A stretch of 64,000 nucleotides of DNA from Streptomyces venezuelae (GTDB lineage Bacteria > Actinomycetota > Actinomycetes > Streptomycetales > Streptomycetaceae): assembly GCF_008642315.1 (NCBI RefSeq), contig NZ_CP029192.1:6014001-6078000 (forward strand). Direction: 5' to 3'. Both the position numbers and the translations under genes were made by a program. The notes below the pieces were generated by a model that saw nothing but the letters and a program-made list of their open reading frames with translations, was not told the origin of the DNA and ran no database searches. Below are positions 5,906 to 64,000 of this stretch, piece by piece. Position 1 is the stretch's first letter. The number at the start of each line of letters is the position of its first letter.

Positions 5906-7322
5906 GACGTAGGCCGAGCGAGACCAGCGCCGCCGTCGCCAAGACCACCGCCGCGTCGATCGCGAGGACCGTCCGCGTGCCCGTGAGCAGATCCGGGACC
6001 GTCGTGGCGAGGACACCGAGGACCGGGATGCCGACGGTGAGGCCCACCTGCTGGGTGGAGGTGACGAGGCCCGTCGCCAGGCCCTGCTCCGCGTCGGGGA
6101 CGCCCGACGTGACCGTCACGCCGTACGACACGATCGCCCCCAGGTGGAACATGCTCGCCACCGACACCGCGGCCGTGGCGAGCCACACCGACCAGCCGCC
6201 CCCGCCGATGCCGAGCAGCGCCGCGACCAGCACACCCTGCCCGGCGAGCGAACCCACCAGCGTGCGGCGGGCACCGAAGCGGCCGATGATCCTCGGCGCG
6301 TACACACCGGCGACCACGGACAGGACGCCCTGCACACCGAAGATCAGGCCGGTCTCGAAGGCCGAGAGGTGCAGGACCTCCTGGAAGTAGAGGGTCAGCA
6401 CGAAGACGACCGTCGACATCATCGAGAACGTGACCAGACCGCCCAGGTTGCCCCACGCCACCGTGCGGCGGCGCAGCATGGGCAGCGAGACCAGCGGGGA
6501 TTCGGCGCGCGACTCGACGTATCCGAAGACGGCGAGCAGCAGCACGCCCGCGATCAGCGTGACGATGACGTCCGTGCCGCCGAAGCCGCGCTCGGCCGCC
6601 GTGGACAGGGCGTAGATCAGGGAGAGCAGACCGCCGGTGACCGTCACGGCGCCGGGGATGTCCAGGCGCGGGCGGTCCGGGGTCCGCGACTCGGGCAGCA
6701 GGCCCGGCGCCAGCGGCAGCACGATCAGGGCGAAGAGGGTCAGCAGGCCCATCGTGGAACGCCAGCCGAGGGTGTCGGTCAGTACGCCGCCCAGCACCAT
6801 GCCGACCGTGAAGCCGAGCGAGAGCAGCGTGCCGGAGATGCCGAGCGCGCGGTCGCGCGCCGGACCCTCGGGAAACGTGGTCGTCAGCAGGGACATGCCG
6901 GTCGGCACGATGGCCGCCGCACCCACGCCCTGCAGCGCGCGCCCGGCGAGGAACGACGCCGGGTCCCACGCGAACGTGGCGAGCAGTGAGGCGAGGCCGA
7001 AGAGCGCGAGCCCCGCGAGGAACAGCTTGCGGCGCCCGAAGAGGTCACCGGTCCTGCCGAAAAGGAGCAGGAAGCCGCCGGACGGCAGGGCGAAGGCGGT
7101 CACCGCCCACTGCAGCGCGGAGTGGCTCATGCCGAGGTCGGGGCCGAGCACAGGCAGTGCGACGTTCAGTACGGAGAAGTCCAGCGCGACCATGAACTGT
7201 GCGGCGCAGAGCACGAAGAGGACGAGCTTGTCGCGGGTGGAGAGCTTGGGGCCGTGCGGCTGCGGCGCCGGAGGAGCGGCCTGGGGGGACGGGGCAGTGG
7301 TGGTGTCGATCGCCATGGTCAA
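5886..7322 (-). CDS. MFS drug exporter, DHA2 (EmrB/QacA) type
   Basis: 478 residues, the length of 14-helix DHA2 exporters. A soluble Pro-rich N terminus precedes helix 1 (LVLFVLCAAQFMVALDFSVLNVALP). LFGRTGDLFGRRKLFLAGL is the MFS loop 2-3 motif A, and GRALQGVGAAAIVPTGMSLL is a DHA2-type helix 4-5. Predicted to export a hydrophobic drug or metabolite by proton antiport. It is divergent from a MmyB-like regulator 85 bp away that probably controls it; the spacer contains an inverted repeat at 7367-7385. Confidence 0.9.
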   Translation of the reverse strand: MTMAIDTTTAPSPQAAPPAPQPHGPKLSTRDKLVLFVLCAAQFMVALDFSVLNVALPVLGPDLGMSHSALQWAVTAFALPSGGFLLLFGRTGDLFGRRKLFLAGLALFGLASLLATFAWDPASFLAGRALQGVGAAAIVPTGMSLLTTTFPEGPARDRALGISGTLLSLGFTVGMVLGGVLTDTLGWRSTMGLLTLFALIVLPLAPGLLPESRTPDRPRLDIPGAVTVTGGLLSLIYALSTAAERGFGGTDVIVTLIAGVLLLAVFGYVESRAESPLVSLPMLRRRTVAWGNLGGLVTFSMMSTVVFVLTLYFQEVLHLSAFETGLIFGVQGVLSVVAGVYAPRIIGRFGARRTLVGSLAGQGVLVAALLGIGGGGWSVWLATAAVSVASMFHLGAIVSYGVTVTSGVPDAEQGLATGLVTSTQQVGLTVGIPVLGVLATTVPDLLTGTRTVLAIDAAVVLATAALVSLGLRRKASRA

Positions 7323-8769: not shown

Positions 8770-8880
8770 ACCCCGCTCCTCAAACGCCGGAGGGGCTGAA
8801 AGCGCGCGCCTGAGGGGCACGAACCGCCCGTGGCGCCGGTCGGTGCGGCGGGGCTCCGGGGATCAGGGACAATGGGCGCC

Positions 8881-57344: not shown

Positions 57345-57358
57345 GTCACGGAGTCACA
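57343..57358. repeat. 8-bp tandem repeat at convergent stops of dus and P450
   Basis: GAGTCACG GAGTCACA: the dus stop overlaps copy 1 and the P450 stop lies in copy 2. Short enough to be chance, but it matches the arrangement at two other convergent junctions here. Confidence 0.6.
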
Positions 57359-58631
57359 GGCTCCGGGCGAGCGTCACCGTCACGGGAAGTTCCTTGATCC
57401 CGTTCACGAAGTTCGACCGCACCCGCCGCACCTCACCGGCCACGCGGATGTCCGCCAGCCTCGGCAGCAGCTCCTCGAACATGATCCGCATCTCCAGGCG
57501 GGCCAGGGAGTTGCCGAGGCAGAAGTGCGGGCTGCCCTTGCCGAAGGTGACGTGGTCGTTGTTCTCGCGGGTGACGTCGAAGCGGTACGGGTCGGGGAAG
57601 ACGTCCTCGTCGCGGTTGCCGGAGGCGAACCACATGACGACCTTGTCGCCCGCCCTGATGAGCTTCCCGCCGAGCTCGACGTCGCGCGTCGCCGTCCGCC
57701 GGAAGTGATAGACGGGCGAGGCCCAGCGCAGGCACTCCTCCACGGCGTTCGGTATGAGCGAGGGGTCGCGGACGAGCCGCTCCCGCTCCTCCGGATGCTC
57801 GATGAGCGCGAGCACGGAGTGCGAGATGGCGTGCCGGGTGGTCTCGTTCCCTGCGACGACGAGCAGCAGGAAGTAGTTGTCGAAGTCGGTGGCGGAGAGC
57901 GGCACGCCGTCCCTGGGTGAGCTGTTCACGAGCGCCGTCACGAGGTCGTCCCCGCTGCCGCCCCGCCGCCGGGCGGCCAACTCCCGCCCGTACGCGAAGA
58001 CTTCGAGAGACGCGGGCGACCTGAAGGGCAGATTGCGGTACTGCCCGCTCTCCTCGCTCTCCAGCAGCACATCGGCGTAGTCCGGGTCGGTGTTCCCGAT
58101 GATGCGGTTGCCCCAGTCGATGAGCTGCTGCGTGTCGCCTTCCGGGACGTCGAGCATGCGGGCGAGCACGTTGATGGGGAAGTCGGCGGACACCTCCCGC
58201 ACGAAGTCGAACGTGCCTTTGGGCAGGGCGGCGTCGAGGGTACGGGCGGTCAGGCCCCGCAGGAACGTCTCGTACGTCGCGACGGCGCGCGGCGTGAACC
58301 GCTTCTGCAGGATGAGCCGCATCGCCCGGTGCCGCAGTCCGTCGGTTTCGAGGAGTGACCGGCGCAACGCGATGTAGTCGTCGTCGACCTCCTCCAGATT
58401 GGTGAACATCTCGGAGGTGAAGGTCTCCGGATCGCGGTCGACGCGCACGATGTCGGCATGCCGGGTGACCGCCCAGAAGCCGGAGTTGGGCGGCGGCTCG
58501 GGCTGCCAGTGGACGGGGTCCTCGCGGCGCAGCACGTCGAACATCCGCCAGGGCAGGTCGCGGTCGGTGAACCGGTCGTTGTCGGCGAGGTCGACGTCGG
58601 CGAGAGGGAGGGGAGGGGTGTCCGTGCGCAT
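57354..58631 (-). CDS. Cytochrome P450
   Basis: 425 residues from ATG 58631 (GGGAG upstream). I-helix LVVAGNETTRHAI, K-helix EECLRW (ExxR) and heme loop FGKGSPHFCLGNSLAR are intact. NSGFWAVTRHADIVRVDRDPETFTSE resembles the CYP124/125/142 group that hydroxylates branched lipids and sterols, but the substrate is not assured. It lies 94 bp downstream of the GS-like gene on the same strand. No ferredoxin is adjacent. Confidence 0.93.
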   Translation of the reverse strand: MRTDTPPLPLADVDLADNDRFTDRDLPWRMFDVLRREDPVHWQPEPPPNSGFWAVTRHADIVRVDRDPETFTSEMFTNLEEVDDDYIALRRSLLETDGLRHRAMRLILQKRFTPRAVATYETFLRGLTARTLDAALPKGTFDFVREVSADFPINVLARMLDVPEGDTQQLIDWGNRIIGNTDPDYADVLLESEESGQYRNLPFRSPASLEVFAYGRELAARRRGGSGDDLVTALVNSSPRDGVPLSATDFDNYFLLLVVAGNETTRHAISHSVLALIEHPEERERLVRDPSLIPNAVEECLRWASPVYHFRRTATRDVELGGKLIRAGDKVVMWFASGNRDEDVFPDPYRFDVTRENNDHVTFGKGSPHFCLGNSLARLEMRIMFEELLPRLADIRVAGEVRRVRSNFVNGIKELPVTVTLARSL

Positions 58632-58653
58632 GAGGGTGCTCCCTTTCAGGGCT

Positions 58654-58725: not shown

Positions 58726-60144
58726 TCAGATGAGGAACGCGTACTCTCCGAACTCCCAGTCCGTGACGCTCTGCTGATACCGCTCGACCTCATTGCGCTT
58801 GTACGTGAGGAACGCGCCGGTGAAGTCCTCGCCGAGGAGTCCGGTGAGCGCCTCGTCGGCCTCCAGGGCGTCGAGGGCCTCGGGGAGGGTGGCGGGGAGG
58901 CGGGGCGCGGAGGACGCGTCGTACCCGTACCCCTCCAGCGGAGCGGGCGGTTCGGGCCGGTCGCGGAGGCCGAGCAGGACGGCGGCGACGGTGCCGGCGA
59001 CGAGGAGGTAGGGGTTGGCGGAGGCGTCGCCGAGGCGCAGCTCCAGGCGGGTGCCCGCGCCGCGTTCGGGCGGGATGCGGACCATGGCGCTGCGGTTGTC
59101 GAGACCCCAGTCGATCAGCCAGGGGGCGAGGGTGTCTGGCCCGAAGCGCTTGTAGGAGTTGACGGTCGGGTTGAGCAGTGCGGCGAGCGCGGGGGCGTGC
59201 CGCAGGACGCCGCCGACGGCGTGCCGGGCGGTGGCGGAGAGCCCGTTCTCGGCCCGCGGATCGTCGAAGACGTTCTGCCCTTCGCCGTCGACGAGCGACA
59301 GATGCACGTGGAACCCCGACCCGCCGAGGCCGTTGAACGGCTTCGCCATGAAGGTCGCGAGACGCCCTTCGTGCCGGGCGGTCTCCTTGACGGCGGCCTT
59401 GAAGAAGAAGGCGCGGTCGGCGGCGTCCAGGGCGCCGGAGTGGTCGAGATTGATCTCGAACTGTCCGCCGTCGAACTCGTGGTTCCCGGCGACGACACCG
59501 ATCCCGAGCGCCTCCAACTGGCGCAGGGTGCGCAGCAGATGGCCGTCGGGGTCGCCGCGCCGCCCGGCGCTGTAGACGTTGCCGGTGGCGGCGCCGTAGG
59601 GGGTCCAGCCGGAGGGGGTGGCGGGGGAGGAGTCGCAGAGGAAGTACTCCAACTCGGGCCCGACGACGACGGAGAGTCCACGCGGCCCGGCGGCGCCTTC
59701 CCGGTGCGGGGCACAGTCGTCGGCGTGCGCGAGCACGCGCTTCAGCAGGGCGCGCGGGGACTCCGGTACGGGCCCGTCGGTGAGCGGGTCCAGGCTGTCC
59801 CCCAGGCACCAGGCGACGCCGGGCTCCCACGGCAGGGGCTTCAGGGTGGTGAGATCCGGTTGTACGCAGATGTCGGGGAGCCCCGCGTCGAGTCCGCCCG
59901 CGACGGGGACGACGTCGCCGCGGGGGGTGGTGTGGTAGACCGCCCTGCAGAACGTCAGACCGTGCGTGCACGCGCTCGGCAGCCGGCCCACGAGGACGTC
60001 TCTGCCGCGGTCGGCTCCCAGCAGGTCGGGGTAGACGACGCGGACGACGTCGGTGCCGGCGGCTCGGAGGTTCTCCACGGTTGCCGTCGCCGTGGCCTGA
60101 ACGGTCGTCGCCCTGCCCTGTGGTCGTGCGCTCGCTTCACTCAC
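58726..60144 (-). CDS. Glutamine-synthetase-family ligase
   Basis: 472 residues from GTG 60144. GS fold with RVVYPDLLGADRGRDVLVGR (beta-grasp), VVGPELEYFLCD (metal Glu), AKPFNGLGGSGFHVHLSL (ATP signature), NPTVNSYKRFGP and SAMVRIPPERGAGTRLELRLGDASANPYL. It is too divergent in the N-terminal half for GlnA1. GS-like enzymes of Streptomyces (GlnA3, GlnA4 and others) gamma-glutamylate polyamines or ethanolamine. The APC permease, MarR regulator, P450 and decarboxylase-family gene nearby suggest uptake and modification of an amine or amino acid. Confidence 0.88.
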   Translation of the reverse strand: MSEASARPQGRATTVQATATATVENLRAAGTDVVRVVYPDLLGADRGRDVLVGRLPSACTHGLTFCRAVYHTTPRGDVVPVAGGLDAGLPDICVQPDLTTLKPLPWEPGVAWCLGDSLDPLTDGPVPESPRALLKRVLAHADDCAPHREGAAGPRGLSVVVGPELEYFLCDSSPATPSGWTPYGAATGNVYSAGRRGDPDGHLLRTLRQLEALGIGVVAGNHEFDGGQFEINLDHSGALDAADRAFFFKAAVKETARHEGRLATFMAKPFNGLGGSGFHVHLSLVDGEGQNVFDDPRAENGLSATARHAVGGVLRHAPALAALLNPTVNSYKRFGPDTLAPWLIDWGLDNRSAMVRIPPERGAGTRLELRLGDASANPYLLVAGTVAAVLLGLRDRPEPPAPLEGYGYDASSAPRLPATLPEALDALEADEALTGLLGEDFTGAFLTYKRNEVERYQQSVTDWEFGEYAFLI

Positions 60145-60182
60145 CCGTGTCCCAGCCTTTCCGGGGGCGCGGTGCGCGATTT

Positions 60183-60196
60183 GTTTGACCTCAAAC
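60183..60196. promoter_or_regulatory. Palindrome before the GS-like gene
   Basis: GTTTGA-CC-TCAAAC is symmetric around CC. It lies 39 bp before the GTG of the GS-like gene. It contains CTCAAACG (60190-60197), the same core as the 18-bp element of the cluster. Confidence 0.65.
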
Positions 60197-60378
60197 GGTA
60201 GGGAGGTGGGGCGGGGTTCGCAAGCCCCCGTACGCCACCGCTCCACAGGACCAGCAGCCCCAACTCCGCTACTCCGCAGCGGAATCACTCCCACCCACCC
60301 GTTCACCCCGTAACGTCCAGCGGGAGTAGGGGCGGTTGACCTACCGGGCCGCAGGCGCCCATGCGTCGGAGGGGACGT

Positions 60379-60467
60379 GGGGGTATGTGCGCACGCAGCA
60401 CCGAGCCAACCGAGGCGGCCGGAAACATTCCACGCGGCGCAGGGATGGCGAGTACGGACATACCCCC
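60379..60467. repeat. Long-range inverted repeat
   Basis: GGGGGTATGT (60379-60388) and ACATACCCCC (60458-60467) are exact 10-bp inverted copies 69 bp apart. The spacing could permit DNA looping or a stem, but it may be coincidental. Confidence 0.5.
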
Positions 60468-60555
60468 GCGGCCCCGCACTCGCAGACGGGCAGCAGGCGA
60501 ACCCACCCCGAGGCGCCCCCGCCGGAAACCGTGACAGAGTGACACCCCCGGCGTA

Positions 60556-60573
60556 TCGTACGGGCTCAAACGA
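60556..60573 (+). promoter_or_regulatory. Shared 18-bp operator candidate (copy 1)
   Basis: TCGTACGGGCTCAAACGA, 23 bp before the start of the ADC-family gene. An identical copy in inverse orientation occurs at 62961-62978. Partial dyad symmetry (TCGT...ACGA). Confidence 0.8.
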
Positions 60574-60596
60574 CCTACCCGGGAGGGGCGTCGAGC

Positions 60597-61388
60597 ATGA
60601 CCGGAGTCCGTGGGTTCCATCCGCCCAAGAGCGCCACCGGCCGCTCCTCCCTCATCCCCGCACCCCCTTGGCACTACTCCGGCGACCTCCTCACCATCGA
60701 GTACCGCACCAACCCCGCCCGCGTCCGCGAACTCCTCCCCGAGCCGCTCGACCTGGCCCCCGAAGACCCCGGCGCCGTCGCCCTCATCTGGGCTGACTGG
60801 CAGTCGTGCGGCGCCGACAGGGCCGAGCTGCTCGACCCCGTCCGCGCCCAGTACAAGGAGTGCTTCGCGGTGGTCCGCTGTGCCTACCGCGCCCGCACCT
60901 ACTCCCGCTGCGTCTACATCTGGGTCGACAAGGACTTCGCCATCGCCCGCGGCAACCACCAGGGCTACCCGAAGAAGCTCGGCTCCATCCACCTCACCCG
61001 CCCCCACCCCTACGGCCCAGCCCCCCGCATCGAGCCCGGCGCCGTCTTCGGCGCCACGCTCGCCGCCGCCGACCGCCGCCTCGCCCAGGCGGTGGTGACC
61101 CTGCGCGAACCCTCCGCGACGAACGGCTTCGTGAACGCCCACCCCATGGCCCACCACCGCCAACTCCCCGCCATCGACGGGAAGGGCCTGGCCCTCGACG
61201 AACTGATCGCCTCGGGCGCCGCGGCCTTCGAGGGCGGTCAGTCGTGGCAGGGCGACGCGGACCTCACCCTCTTCGACGCGCCCACGGAGGAGCTCGCCGA
61301 CCTCACGGTCGACGAGCCCATAGGCGCGTACTACCGCCAGGTGGGAGTCACCTGGAACGGCGGCACCTTGCTGGAGCGGGGCCTCTAA
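60597..61388 (+). CDS. Acetoacetate decarboxylase-family protein
   Basis: 263 residues from ATG 60597 (GGGAGG upstream). GNHQGYPKKLGSIHL has the paired Lys of the ADC active site (Schiff-base Lys and its neighbour) in the expected GYPKK context. Family members include true acetoacetate decarboxylases and enzymes that cyclise or dehydrate 2-keto amino acid derivatives. In this cluster the second option is possible. Its stop lies in copy 1 of a 16-bp tandem repeat. Confidence 0.87.
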   Translation: MTGVRGFHPPKSATGRSSLIPAPPWHYSGDLLTIEYRTNPARVRELLPEPLDLAPEDPGAVALIWADWQSCGADRAELLDPVRAQYKECFAVVRCAYRARTYSRCVYIWVDKDFAIARGNHQGYPKKLGSIHLTRPHPYGPAPRIEPGAVFGATLAAADRRLAQAVVTLREPSATNGFVNAHPMAHHRQLPAIDGKGLALDELIASGAAAFEGGQSWQGDADLTLFDAPTEELADLTVDEPIGAYYRQVGVTWNGGTLLERGL

Positions 61389-61416
61389 CCACCCGCGTCC
61401 CTAACCACCCACGTCC
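61385..61416. repeat. 16-bp tandem duplication at convergent stops
   Basis: CTAACCACCCGCGTCC then CTAACCACCCACGTCC (15 of 16 identical). The ADC-family stop (TAA) is in copy 1, the permease stop (CTA, TAG on minus) in copy 2. Confidence 0.9.
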
Positions 61417-62915
61417 CCCTTTTCCCGCTCACTCCCAGCTCCCGACCCAGCTCCCGACCCGGTTCCCGCCCCAACCCCATCCCCAACTCCCGCATAAATC
61501 CCAGGCCGCCCCACCCGCAGCCAAGCCCCCCACCCGACCCCCACCCCCGCCGCGACCAGAATGAGCCCCGGCAGAATCCACCGCAGGGGGTTGGCCGAGG
61601 AAACCCCCAGCTGGACGCTGAAGTTGGTGAGGGCGAGCCAGAAGATGACGGCGAGCGCGGCACCCGAGAGGACGGGGGCGATCAGCCGGTGCCAGAGGGG
61701 CTCGCCCAGCTCGGGCCGGCGTGCGAAGTAGGCGACGACCGACGCCGACGTGGCGAACAGGAGCAGGATCACGCCGAGCGCGCCGAGGTTGGTCAGCCAG
61801 GTGAAGACGTCGGCGACGGGGTCGCGCCCGGCCAGGGCGAAGACGCAGATCACGATGACGGTGACCGCGGTCTGCAGCAGCGAACCCCGGTGCGGCGAGG
61901 AGTGCCGCCGGTGCAGGACCCCGAGTCGGCGGGGCAGTACACCTTCCCGCCCGAGCGAACGCACGTACCGCGCAACGGCGTTGTGGAAGGAGAGGAGCGC
62001 GGCGAGCAGGCTGGTGATCAGGAAGAACTGGGCGAAGTCGGAGAAGACCGTGCCCGGACTGGCGTCGCCGAGCGAGAACATCATCCCCGGCCCCTGCTCG
62101 GCGGCGATCCGATTCGCCCGCCCGGTCCCCGCGCCCGTGACCATCGCCCAGGCCGTGGCGGCGTAGAAGACGCCGATGAGCCCGACGGCGATGTACGTGG
62201 CGCGTGCGACGGTACGGCGCGGATCCCGGCACTCCTCGCTGTACAGCGCGGCCGACTCGAAGCCCATGTAAGCCGCGAACACGCAGCACAGCGCGACGCC
62301 GAGCGAGCCGTCCGTGGCGGCGCCCCAGGTGAGCGGCGCGGTCGAGACGCCCTCGGGGGCGTGGGTGAACTGGCCGATGTCGAAGACGAGCACTGTGCCG
62401 AACTCCAGGACGAGCAGCACGGCGAGGACGCGCACCCCCACGTCGACGCGCCGGTAGCCGAGCGCCCCGACGACGGCCGCGCAGGCCAGTACGAGAACCC
62501 ACCAGGGAATCTCCACCCCCGTCCGGGCGTCGATGAACTCAGAGGTGGTGGCGCCGAAGAGGCCCGCGATGCCGATCTGCATGGCGTTGTACGAGAGCAG
62601 CGCGACGAAGGCCGCGCCGACACCGGGGACGCGGCCGAGACCGTGCGCGGTGTACGCGTAGAACGCCCCGGCGCCGGTGATGTGACGGCTCATCGCCGCG
62701 TACCCGGCGCTGAAGAGCGCGAGTACGACGGCTGTCAGGAGGTAGAGGAGCGGTATCCCGAGGATTCCCGTGATGCCTAGGGACTGCGGGACACCGCCCG
62801 CGGCCACGGTCAGCGGCGCGGACGCGGCGACGACGACGAAGACGATGCCCGCGACACCGATGCGGCGTTCGGGGACAGTGGTGGAAACGGGCGTGACGGG
62901 GGAGTCGAGGGCCAT
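61401..62915 (-). CDS. APC-superfamily amino acid/amine permease
   Basis: 504 residues, about 12 helices. VPQSLGITGILGIPLLYLL and GAGAFYAYTAHGLGRVPGVGAAF are APC helix 1-3 motifs; GFESAALYSEECRDPRRTVARATY is the conserved helix 6 Glu-Ser region. Its C terminus is a Gly-Ser-Val low-complexity tail (VGAGTGSGAGSG). It imports an amino acid or polyamine by proton symport. Divergent from marR, with the 18-bp site between. Confidence 0.92.
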   Translation of the reverse strand: MALDSPVTPVSTTVPERRIGVAGIVFVVVAASAPLTVAAGGVPQSLGITGILGIPLLYLLTAVVLALFSAGYAAMSRHITGAGAFYAYTAHGLGRVPGVGAAFVALLSYNAMQIGIAGLFGATTSEFIDARTGVEIPWWVLVLACAAVVGALGYRRVDVGVRVLAVLLVLEFGTVLVFDIGQFTHAPEGVSTAPLTWGAATDGSLGVALCCVFAAYMGFESAALYSEECRDPRRTVARATYIAVGLIGVFYAATAWAMVTGAGTGRANRIAAEQGPGMMFSLGDASPGTVFSDFAQFFLITSLLAALLSFHNAVARYVRSLGREGVLPRRLGVLHRRHSSPHRGSLLQTAVTVIVICVFALAGRDPVADVFTWLTNLGALGVILLLFATSASVVAYFARRPELGEPLWHRLIAPVLSGAALAVIFWLALTNFSVQLGVSSANPLRWILPGLILVAAGVGVGWGAWLRVGRPGIYAGVGDGVGAGTGSGAGSGAGSEREKGDVGG

Positions 62916-62960
62916 GCCGAACTCCGGGGAGAGGAGGGCGCGTCCGCTCGGGACGCGTTA

Positions 62961-62978
62961 TCGTTTGAGCCCGTACGA
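62961..62978 (-). promoter_or_regulatory. Shared 18-bp operator candidate (copy 2)
   Basis: TCGTTTGAGCCCGTACGA, the exact reverse complement of copy 1 (60556-60573). It lies 46 bp before the permease start and 73 bp before the marR GTG, so it can control both. Confidence 0.8.
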
Positions 62979-63050: not shown

Positions 63051-63629
63051 GTGACGGGCGATCGCACCATCCACGAGACCGAGAAGGCGGTCAGGGCCAA
63101 GCTCGGCGGCACACCCGTCGCGTACGAGCAGATGGCCGCGGTGTCGAACATCTACCGCGCGGCCGCGGCGGTCCGGCAGCACTTCGAGAACTCGGTCCTG
63201 CGCGGCGCCGAACTGACGTGGACGTCGTTCGTCGTGCTCTATGTGGTCTGGATCTGGGGCGAGATGGAGACGCGGTACGTCGCCGAGGAGGCCGGCATCT
63301 CCAAGGGCACGCTGACGGGGGTCGCCCGCACGCTCATGGGCCGGGGCCTGCTCGAACGCCGCGGCCACCCGGAGGACGGAAGGCTGGTCCTGCTCCGGCT
63401 GACGGACGAGGGGGAGCGGACGATGAACGACGTCTTCCCCGCCTTCAACGCGGAGGAGGCCTTCGTCACGGAGGGGCTGACGGACGCGGAGTGCGAGACG
63501 CTGGCGGACCTGCTCCGCAAGATCGTCGTACGGACGGAGGAGAAGGGCGACGACCGCAGGCAGAACCTCCTGAACGGCGCACCCCCACCCCCGCGCCGCA
63601 GCGGCCGCAGACCCCGCTCCACCGCCTGA
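63051..63629 (+). CDS. MarR-family regulator
   Basis: 192 residues, GTG 63051 with GAGGAGGG upstream. Winged helix with YVAEEAGISKGTLTGVARTLMGRGLLERRGHPEDGRLVLLRLTDEGE. Length exceeds the usual about 150-170 because the last roughly 16 residues (PPPPRRSGRRPRSTA) and the stop are read from the tandem-repeat array that follows. It is the likely regulator binding the 18-bp sites upstream of the permease and ADC genes. Confidence 0.9.
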   Translation: MTGDRTIHETEKAVRAKLGGTPVAYEQMAAVSNIYRAAAAVRQHFENSVLRGAELTWTSFVVLYVVWIWGEMETRYVAEEAGISKGTLTGVARTLMGRGLLERRGHPEDGRLVLLRLTDEGERTMNDVFPAFNAEEAFVTEGLTDAECETLADLLRKIVVRTEEKGDDRRQNLLNGAPPPPRRSGRRPRSTA

Positions 63630-63958
63630 CCCCCACCTCGGCCACCCCCACCCCCGCGTCGCAGCGGCCGCAGACCCCGCCCCACCGCCTGACCCGCACC
63701 TCGGGCCCCGCGCCGCAGCGGCCGCAGACCCCGCTCCACCGCCTGACCCCCACCTCGGCCACCCCCACCCCCGCGTCGCAGCGGCCGCAAACCCCGCCCC
63801 ACCGCTTGCCCCCCACCTCGGGCCCCCGCGCCGCAGCGGCTACAAGCCCCGCCCCACCGCCTGACTCCTACGCCGCCCCCGCGCCGCAGTCGCCGCAAAC
63901 CCCGCCCCACCACCTGACCCCCACCTCGCCCCCCCCCCCCCCGCGCCTGGCCCGCAGA
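63582..63958. repeat. GC-rich tandem repeat array (about six units)
   Basis: Units share CGCAGCGGCCGCAGACCCC and CCACCGCCTGACCCCCACCT. Start-to-start spacings are about 63, 54, 63, 55 and 53 bp, so they alternate in length. The array begins inside the end of the MarR gene and contains its stop. A run of 14 C (63929-63942) lies near the end. Confidence 0.9.
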
Positions 63959-64000
63959 GCAGCCCGTCACCCCGCGCGCGCATCCCTCTCCGCCCACCCC
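63630..64000. other. Non-coding region at the window end
   Basis: 371 bp after the MarR stop holds the repeat array (to about 63958) and a short remainder. No gene is seen in either strand; the minus-strand reading is repeat-driven (Gly/Arg-rich). Confidence 0.6.

Follow-up and report, generated by a model that had tools for sequence, protein, structure and literature searches.

A conserved 18-bp dyad as the putative operator of a MarR-family repressor in a catabolic gene cluster of Streptomyces venezuelae

Five copies of an 18-bp dyad are confined to one gene cluster

The window analysed here is a stretch of 64,000 nucleotides of the Streptomyces venezuelae genome (C1:6014001-6078000). It carries copies of an 18-bp dyad with the consensus TCGTTTGRNNYCAAACGA, which on sequence comparison is very probably the operator of the MarR protein encoded at 63051-63629, a predicted autoregulated repressor of the catabolic cluster around it. 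This assigns a putative operator and regulator to a cluster that is found in many actinomycetes, and makes its regulon readable from sequence.

The preliminary description of the window reported an 18-mer and its reverse complement at two promoters and judged a chance match unlikely. Both positions are exact: the 18-mer TCGTACGGGCTCAAACGA lies at 60556-60573 (+) and its exact reverse complement at 62961-62978 (-). At up to three mismatches these two matches were the only ones in the window; the average over 100 shuffles was 0.08 matches, and no shuffle had two. The palindrome noticed before the gene of a glutamine-synthetase (GS)-like ligase was also found; it reads GTTTGA-CC-TCAAAC (60183-60196), with perfect arms and an asymmetric 2-base centre. 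The sequence CTCAAACG occurs four times in the window versus 0.9 expected (1 of 100 shuffles got to four), with three copies in the cluster and one stray copy at 8779.

The 18-mer is not frequent elsewhere in the genome, which had been proposed as a check. Only two exact copies exist in 8,942,078 bases, both in the cluster, and none was found in the 149 other genus genomes searched. With three mismatches, four further places were obtained, one of which (6078744) belongs to the same cluster just beyond the window. The 18-mer is a variant of the dyad, and the symmetric form TCGTTTGANNTCAAACGA at up to three mismatches occurs at six places in the S. venezuelae genome, five in the cluster (6074181-6078848) and one stray (8379947). 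The five good dyad copies of the genome are all located inside 4.7 kb. When these five sites were scored with a position weight matrix (PWM) trained on other genomes only, all of them reached at least 14.0 (Table 1), and the next best score in 88 kb was 8.8. The three motif sites named previously are thus all present, but two more lie past the window end; the 18-mer is real, but is itself a lower-scoring asymmetric variant of the operator. It forms an imperfect dyad at sites 2 and 3, with 5 of 8 arm positions matching, compared with 6 of 8 at the other three sites.

In this cluster, the dyad is present in every divergent or operon-head promoter region, and no dyad scoring at least 14 was found at the inner gene starts. 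The -10-like hexamers TACCGT, TATCGT and TAATGT overlap or touch the sites before the GS-like gene, the acetoacetate-decarboxylase (ADC)-superfamily gene and the aldehyde dehydrogenase (ALDH) gene, respectively, with TATCGT overlapped by site 2.

The asymmetric form is also carried by marR promoters of relatives, often as CAATTTGAGNCCGAACGA in the larger group and as TCGTTTGANNCCGTACG(A/G) or near it in the clade of the S. venezuelae genome. In S. silaceus (L148), the region between permease and marR contains the identical 18-mer at the corresponding position, and a close variant, TCGTACGGGCCCAAACGA, lies at the ADC gene of Streptomyces sp. HNM0574. The two identical 18-mers are an asymmetric operator variant at two promoters, and their exact identity needs no special explanation.

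The same dyad is recovered de novo from related loci

An alignment of seven LigB proteins was used as query, and 485 tblastn-confirmed relatives were obtained in one genome-contig scan. The best 80 were studied as loci, picked by their dioxygenase and irrespective of the dyad. Within 10 kb on either side of the dioxygenase, on contigs some of which are short, these loci contain genes for ADC (74), GS (70), P450 (65), hydrolase (64), a second ALDH (62), MarR (55) and TetR (55).

Dyads w6-N0..8-rc(w6) whose arms disagree at no more than one position were enumerated in the 431 gene gaps of the 80 loci. The six commonest were registers of TCGTTTGRNNYCAAACGA, present in 73, 73, 68, 67, 66 and 65 loci. 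A second, different motif, TATCCA-N2-TGGATA, was present in 49 loci, and the best dyad outside the registers of both motifs in 26. At up to two mismatches, the consensus dyad was found in 69 of the 80 loci, 27 of which had it in more than one gap, and 40 permuted half-sites used as a control reached at most one locus.

Sites are placed at operon-head promoters

The placement of sites was determined with a matrix built from the stretches upstream of 70 GS genes, taking as threshold 3.29, the 99th percentile of the best scores of shuffled stretches. Sites were found upstream of ferredoxin (61/66), permease (52/61), marR (42/55) and the second ALDH (33/62), and less often upstream of ADC (10/74) and the first ALDH (8/68), both of which are mostly inner genes in relatives. 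The figure for GS, 70/70, is circular, the matrix having been trained on those stretches. Inner-gene controls were nearly free of upstream sites: FAH 0/69, P450 0/65, TetR 0/55, hydrolase 0/21 and LigB 1/80. The 8/19 for ferredoxin reductase is probably an artefact of some stretches that reach back over the ferredoxin gene or promoter.

At a score of at least 14, there were 252 sites. None of them fell within a mapped cluster gene; these genes, after removal of 30 bp from either end, cover 858,602 of 1,564,518 bases (55%). At least one such site was present in 78 of the 80 loci; the other two are contigs of 11 and 4 kb with no GS, permease or marR mapped. For site pairs less than 150 bp apart, 31 had a spacing of exactly 107 bp and 54 of 105-109 bp; in the relatives' loci that were read, such pairs lie in the divergent GS/ferredoxin promoter. 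This spacing nearly equals an integral number of helical turns, and cooperative binding is possible.

In several relatives the same dyad also lies before genes for an F420-type LLM oxidoreductase (10 of 17 upstream stretches) and an amidohydrolase (5 of 11), at L140 9866 (= L073 366), L074 1658 and 5583, and L153 2672 and 3766. This suggests that the two genes may be further members of the regulon.

The dyad follows the MarR protein

Co-occurrence was counted in 150 genus genomes. MarR was taken at 60% identity or more, so that G141 (58%, partial) and remote paralogues at 31-36% were not counted; LigB was taken at 74% or more, which leaves out four genomes at 59-60% (G018, G045, G058 and G060). 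In the 20 kb examined in each of G058 and G018, no other cluster gene and no site at up to three mismatches was found. MarR was present in 37 genomes, LigB in 34 and both in 32 (p=5e-25). The dyad at up to two mismatches was present in 29 of the 37 genomes with MarR versus 18 of the 113 without it (p=6e-12).

The dyad also accompanies marR genes that lie apart from the main cluster. Ten such genes were collected (in G049, G013, G110, G108, G059, G064, G090, G137 and G140, and the second copy in G144), and in eight of them the 160 bp upstream contain a site that exceeds 3.29, with scores from 5.2 to 20.0. G049, G013, G110 and G108 have no marR in the 20 kb around the dioxygenase, yet sites remain there.

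The S. venezuelae protein has the Pfam domain of the family above its gathering score and a winged-helix fold, and its predicted DNA-reading helix segment, SKGTLTG, is identical in 100% of 56 sequences. The mean predicted local distance difference test (pLDDT) score of the model is 69.7, with confidence in the wing-helix part only, so no ligand pocket was read. A fold search gave 254 PDB matches at E<=0.001; the 50 that were listed, with HpaR-DNA and PcaV among the best, are by title or general knowledge nearly all MarR-family proteins.

The dyads are thus conserved both in the promoter of marR itself and in those of its proposed targets. The earlier proposal that one regulator, probably this MarR, controls the whole cluster is strongly supported by these comparisons, because the dyads sit at the cluster promoters, co-occur with MarR and accompany most of the outlying marR genes.

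Some observations weigh against this assignment. Sites 2 and 3 have the lowest PWM scores of the five, and marR-promoter sites in relatives are degenerate, with just the 42 of 55 above threshold. The 80 loci are mutually related and not independent; the different promoters inside one locus are not copies of one another. The -10-like hexamers are consensus matches only, and a separate promoter scan reports just that of site 2. A site at up to two mismatches is missing from 8 of the 37 MarR genomes and present in the 18 MarR-less ones; in three of the 18 (G019, G032 and G145) it is TCGTTTCACGTGAAACGA, which we take to contain the Streptomyces parS sequence, and in G081, a fragmented assembly, the site precedes the GS-P450 genes. 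The dyad pattern read backwards, as a control, has matches in 3 of 150 genomes. Two outlying marR genes fall below the threshold, in G140 (-1.6, GAATTTGAGCCCGAGCGA) and G090 (-12.6). Finally, repression over activation is assumed from the overlap of the sites with promoter-like hexamers.

Proposed regulation and alternative regulators

In the proposed mechanism, a MarR dimer would bind the five 18-bp operators with consensus TCGTTTGRNNYCAAACGA, which front each operon of one contiguous catabolic cluster and overlap or touch -10-like hexamers, and would block transcription until a compound of the pathway binds MarR. The sites at marR/permease and at ADC have the asymmetric variant TCGTTTGAGCCCGTACGA. 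This is presumably a weaker operator, and its presence at marR may leave only partial self-repression.

MarR might instead act on the dyads as an activator, or in both ways, since some MarR proteins do activate. We consider this improbable, as a protein bound at the sites that overlap or touch the -10-like hexamers before GS, ADC and ALDH would be expected to exclude RNA polymerase.

It is more improbable still that the dyad is bound by another regulator, with MarR as a bystander. The obvious candidate is the TetR of many related clusters, which is encoded in 55 of the 80 loci, commonly between FAH and permease. However, no TetR orthologue was detected in the window, L007 or L008 (tblastn, E<=1e-5), though the S. 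venezuelae cluster has five sites, and the dyad is present in 24 of the 25 TetR-negative loci. TetR follows a different dyad, CTATCCANNTGGATAG at up to three mismatches, found in 54 of 55 TetR loci versus 4 of 25 without TetR (p=3e-14) and not found in L007. TetR was rejected as the binder of the MarR-associated dyad on the ground that it tracks this other one. This second dyad, approximately TTATCCANNYGGATAG, was seen in L165, L183, L195, L213 and L225 (about 6040-6130; 14431 in L183) and in other loci, and is probably the TetR operator.

An origin of the 18-mer by chance, or as a small repeat of mobile or dispersed type, with no regulatory role can practically be dismissed: its two identical copies are inverted and 2.4 kb apart, as a repeat might be, but they are the only exact copies in 8.94 Mb, the shuffles do not reproduce them, the same or variant sites occur at corresponding promoters in other species (for example L148 and L153), and permuted half-sites are essentially absent.

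Two known regulators are closest to the MarR protein preferred here as the binder. HpaR is the MarR-family regulator of homoprotocatechuate degradation; its family TIGR02337 is the second best NCBIfam hit of the present MarR, the fold search places the HpaR-DNA complex 7el3 third, and ring-cleavage genes are nearby in both cases. However, the present MarR is not a member (47.7 bits against a cut-off of 121.2), and its cluster adds genes of the gamma-glutamylation type. PcaV of Streptomyces coelicolor, a ligand-responsive MarR-family protein of the same genus, is together with MgrA the best PDB sequence match (4fht, E 1e-8). PcaV is nevertheless distant and belongs to another cluster, and its operator is, as far as known, different from the present dyad.

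Genes of the cluster

The region had been described as a cluster of GS-like, ADC and permease genes. These genes are present, but the cluster is larger: it begins with the P450 gene at 57354 and continues to a ferredoxin reductase gene that ends about 5.6 kb beyond the window. From left to right, the order is P450 and GS-like (-), ADC (+), APC permease (-), marR (+), C26 hydrolase (-), and then ALDH, dioxygenase, FAH, ferredoxin and ferredoxin reductase (+).

Table 1. Genes and putative operator sites of the cluster (window coordinates, or L007 coordinates past the window end)
Feature	Coordinates	Strand	Family or placement	PWM score
Cytochrome P450	57354..58631	-	PF00067 (searched as 57354-58652); same strand as and downstream of GS-like gene	
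Glutamine-synthetase-like ligase	58726..60144	-	PF00120	
Operator site 1, TTGTTTGACCTCAAACGG	60181..60198	.	36 bp upstream of GS-like GTG start	26.2
Operator site 2, 18-mer TCGTACGGGCTCAAACGA	60556..60573	+	23 bp upstream of ADC-family gene	14.0
Acetoacetate-decarboxylase-superfamily gene (MppR-like)	60597..61388	+	PF06314	
APC-family permease	61401..62915	-	PF13520	
Operator site 3, exact reverse complement of site 2	62961..62978	-	Divergent permease/marR promoter region; 45 bp to permease start, 72 bp to marR start	14.0
marR, proposed autoregulated repressor	63051..63629	+	PF01047, 44.6 bits (cut-off 24.6)	
PuuD-like C26 hydrolase	63967..64000 in window (last codons); whole gene L007 7967-8719 (window-equivalent 63967-64719)	-	PF07722	
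Operator site 4, TCGTTTGGGCTCAAACGG	L007 8744-8761 (window-equivalent 64744-64761)		Past window end; 24 bp from proposed start of PuuD-like hydrolase	21.5
Operator site 5, TTGTTTGGGTTCAAACGA	L007 8831-8848 (window-equivalent 64831-64848)		Past window end; 13 bp from proposed start of ALDH, head of ALDH-dioxygenase-FAH-ferredoxin operon	31.6
Operon of ALDH (HpaE-like), LigB/HpaD-like dioxygenase, HpaG-like FAH, 4Fe-4S ferredoxin and ferredoxin reductase	L007 8862-13647	+	Beyond window	

Residues of likely importance are fully conserved in four of the enzymes. The haem-ligand Cys of the P450, whose nearest solved relatives are CYP125/CYP124-like, is present in 100% of 66 aligned relatives, the Cys, His and Glu of the hydrolase in 100% of 64, and the His of the dioxygenase in 100% of 81 aligned sequences. 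For the ADC-superfamily protein, the nearest solved chains are 4jm3, 6eej, 4zbo and 5upb, and its Lys pair is present in 100% of 74 sequences. Where solved GS chains have the motif GYEAP, the GS-like protein has DTLAP, and the Leu that replaces Glu is found in 97% of 71 sequences. From general knowledge of GS, this replacement argues against ammonium as the substrate. The protein also scores below the equivalog cut-offs of ammonia-assimilating GS (TIGR00653, 275.7 of 429.15; TIGR03105, 293.9 of 469.6).

The second ALDH (ALDH2) of the relatives adjoins the hydrolase gene in 62 of the 64 loci that have the hydrolase. The S. venezuelae genome contains no close orthologue (best 48% identity), and its absence from this cluster looks like a lineage-specific loss. 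No ALDH2 gene lies in the space between the hydrolase gene and its operator (L007 8719-8744, window-equivalent 64719-64744).

Downstream of marR and before the hydrolase gene, at window 63590-63990, there are several repeats of blocks like CGCAGCGGCCGCAGACCCCGC, which by eye form a degenerate tandem array.

A possible hybrid pathway

The gene content joins gamma-glutamylation functions (GS-like ligase, PuuD-like hydrolase and, in relatives, PuuC-like ALDH) with aromatic meta-cleavage functions (HpaD-, HpaE- and HpaG-like), and also includes a P450 with likely redox partners and the ADC-superfamily enzyme. The best NCBIfam hits are HpaE for the first ALDH (ALDH1) and HpaD for the dioxygenase, HpaG being second best for FAH. 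Among 42 families, ALDH2 matches PuuC best, and gamma-glutamyl-GABA (gamma-aminobutyrate) hydrolase is the best for the hydrolase. No curated cut-off of either pathway is reached, in Hpa (HpaD 115.8 of 315.95; HpaE 520.5 of 638.35; HpaG C-terminal 205.9 of 276.4) or in Puu (GGputSyn 251.8 of 650; PuuC 563.9 of 850 for ALDH2 of the relative L077; gamma-glutamyl-GABA hydrolase 58.5 of 266). The cluster is best read as a putative catabolic hybrid of Puu-like and Hpa-like functions. Its substrate, perhaps tyramine or dopamine, is not fixed by the NCBIfam and PDB matches.

The Puu putrescine pathway (PuuA/PuuC/PuuD) has in common with the present cluster the grouping of a GS-like ligase, a PuuC-like ALDH (in relatives) and a C26 hydrolase. 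It differs in that the present cluster attaches aromatic ring-cleavage genes and that no PuuB-type oxidase was found among the proteins scanned. With the Hpa meta-cleavage pathway (HpaD/HpaE/HpaG), the cluster shares a LigB dioxygenase, an HpaE-like ALDH and an HpaG-like FAH in one operon. Unlike it, the cluster has an ADC-superfamily gene in place of HpaF, HpaH and HpaI, none of which was matched among the proteins covered by general library scans, with no search aimed at them. The nearest solved relatives of the ADC-superfamily protein (MppR 4jm3; 4zbo/6eej; 5upb) have the lysine motif that it keeps, and aldolase-dehydratase activity is known among its relatives. It is not a member of the MppR enduracididine enzyme family (TIGR04460, 171.7 of 380).

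Reasoning chemically from known pathways, one can tentatively draw a route that would degrade a phenolic amine, for instance tyramine or dopamine, through ring cleavage with the nitrogen of the amine kept glutamate-capped. The GS-like ligase would form the gamma-glutamyl amide of the amine, and P450 with ferredoxin and reductase would form the catechol. The LigB dioxygenase, ALDH1 and FAH would then carry out ring opening by extradiol cleavage, oxidation and decarboxylation, and the ADC-superfamily enzyme would perform the final hydration and retro-aldol step, replacing HpaH and HpaI. The products would be pyruvate and gamma-glutamyl-gamma-aminobutyraldehyde, the substrate of PuuC, which ALDH2 would convert to gamma-glutamyl-GABA, the substrate of PuuD, and the PuuD-like hydrolase would release GABA and glutamate. 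In S. venezuelae, another ALDH would need to stand in for the ALDH2 missing from the cluster. To our knowledge, no such hybrid route has been described. Gamma-glutamyl capping is a strategy familiar from putrescine; if the route is true, it would be carried through aromatic ring cleavage, and the ADC-superfamily protein would gain a concrete catabolic job.

Speaking against the route, the CYP125/CYP124 likeness of the P450 points to no tyramine hydroxylase, no Puu or Hpa curated cut-off is reached, and the HpaF-like isomerase is among the unmatched proteins. The lack of an ALDH2 orthologue in the genome argues against a complete pathway in the S. venezuelae cluster. The cluster could instead encode a conventional homoprotocatechuate (hpa) or aniline-type pathway, a reading that we regard as less likely than not. 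The Hpa-type best and second best hits fit it, and aniline clusters, too, contain GS-like and amidotransferase-like genes. However, every Hpa-like match is under its cut-off, and an aniline route has no obvious need for an ALDH2 whose best family is PuuC and which adjoins the PuuD-like gene in nearly all loci.

Background matches of the dyad search

For the 16-base core at up to three mismatches, the S. venezuelae genome gave 76 matches versus 36 for the reversed control, and this count was not used as evidence. Several GTTTCACGTGAAAC-like sites are grouped at G000:C1 4432221-4537959. We take GTTTCACGTGAAAC to be the chromosomal parS site, and sites like it account for some of the background matches.

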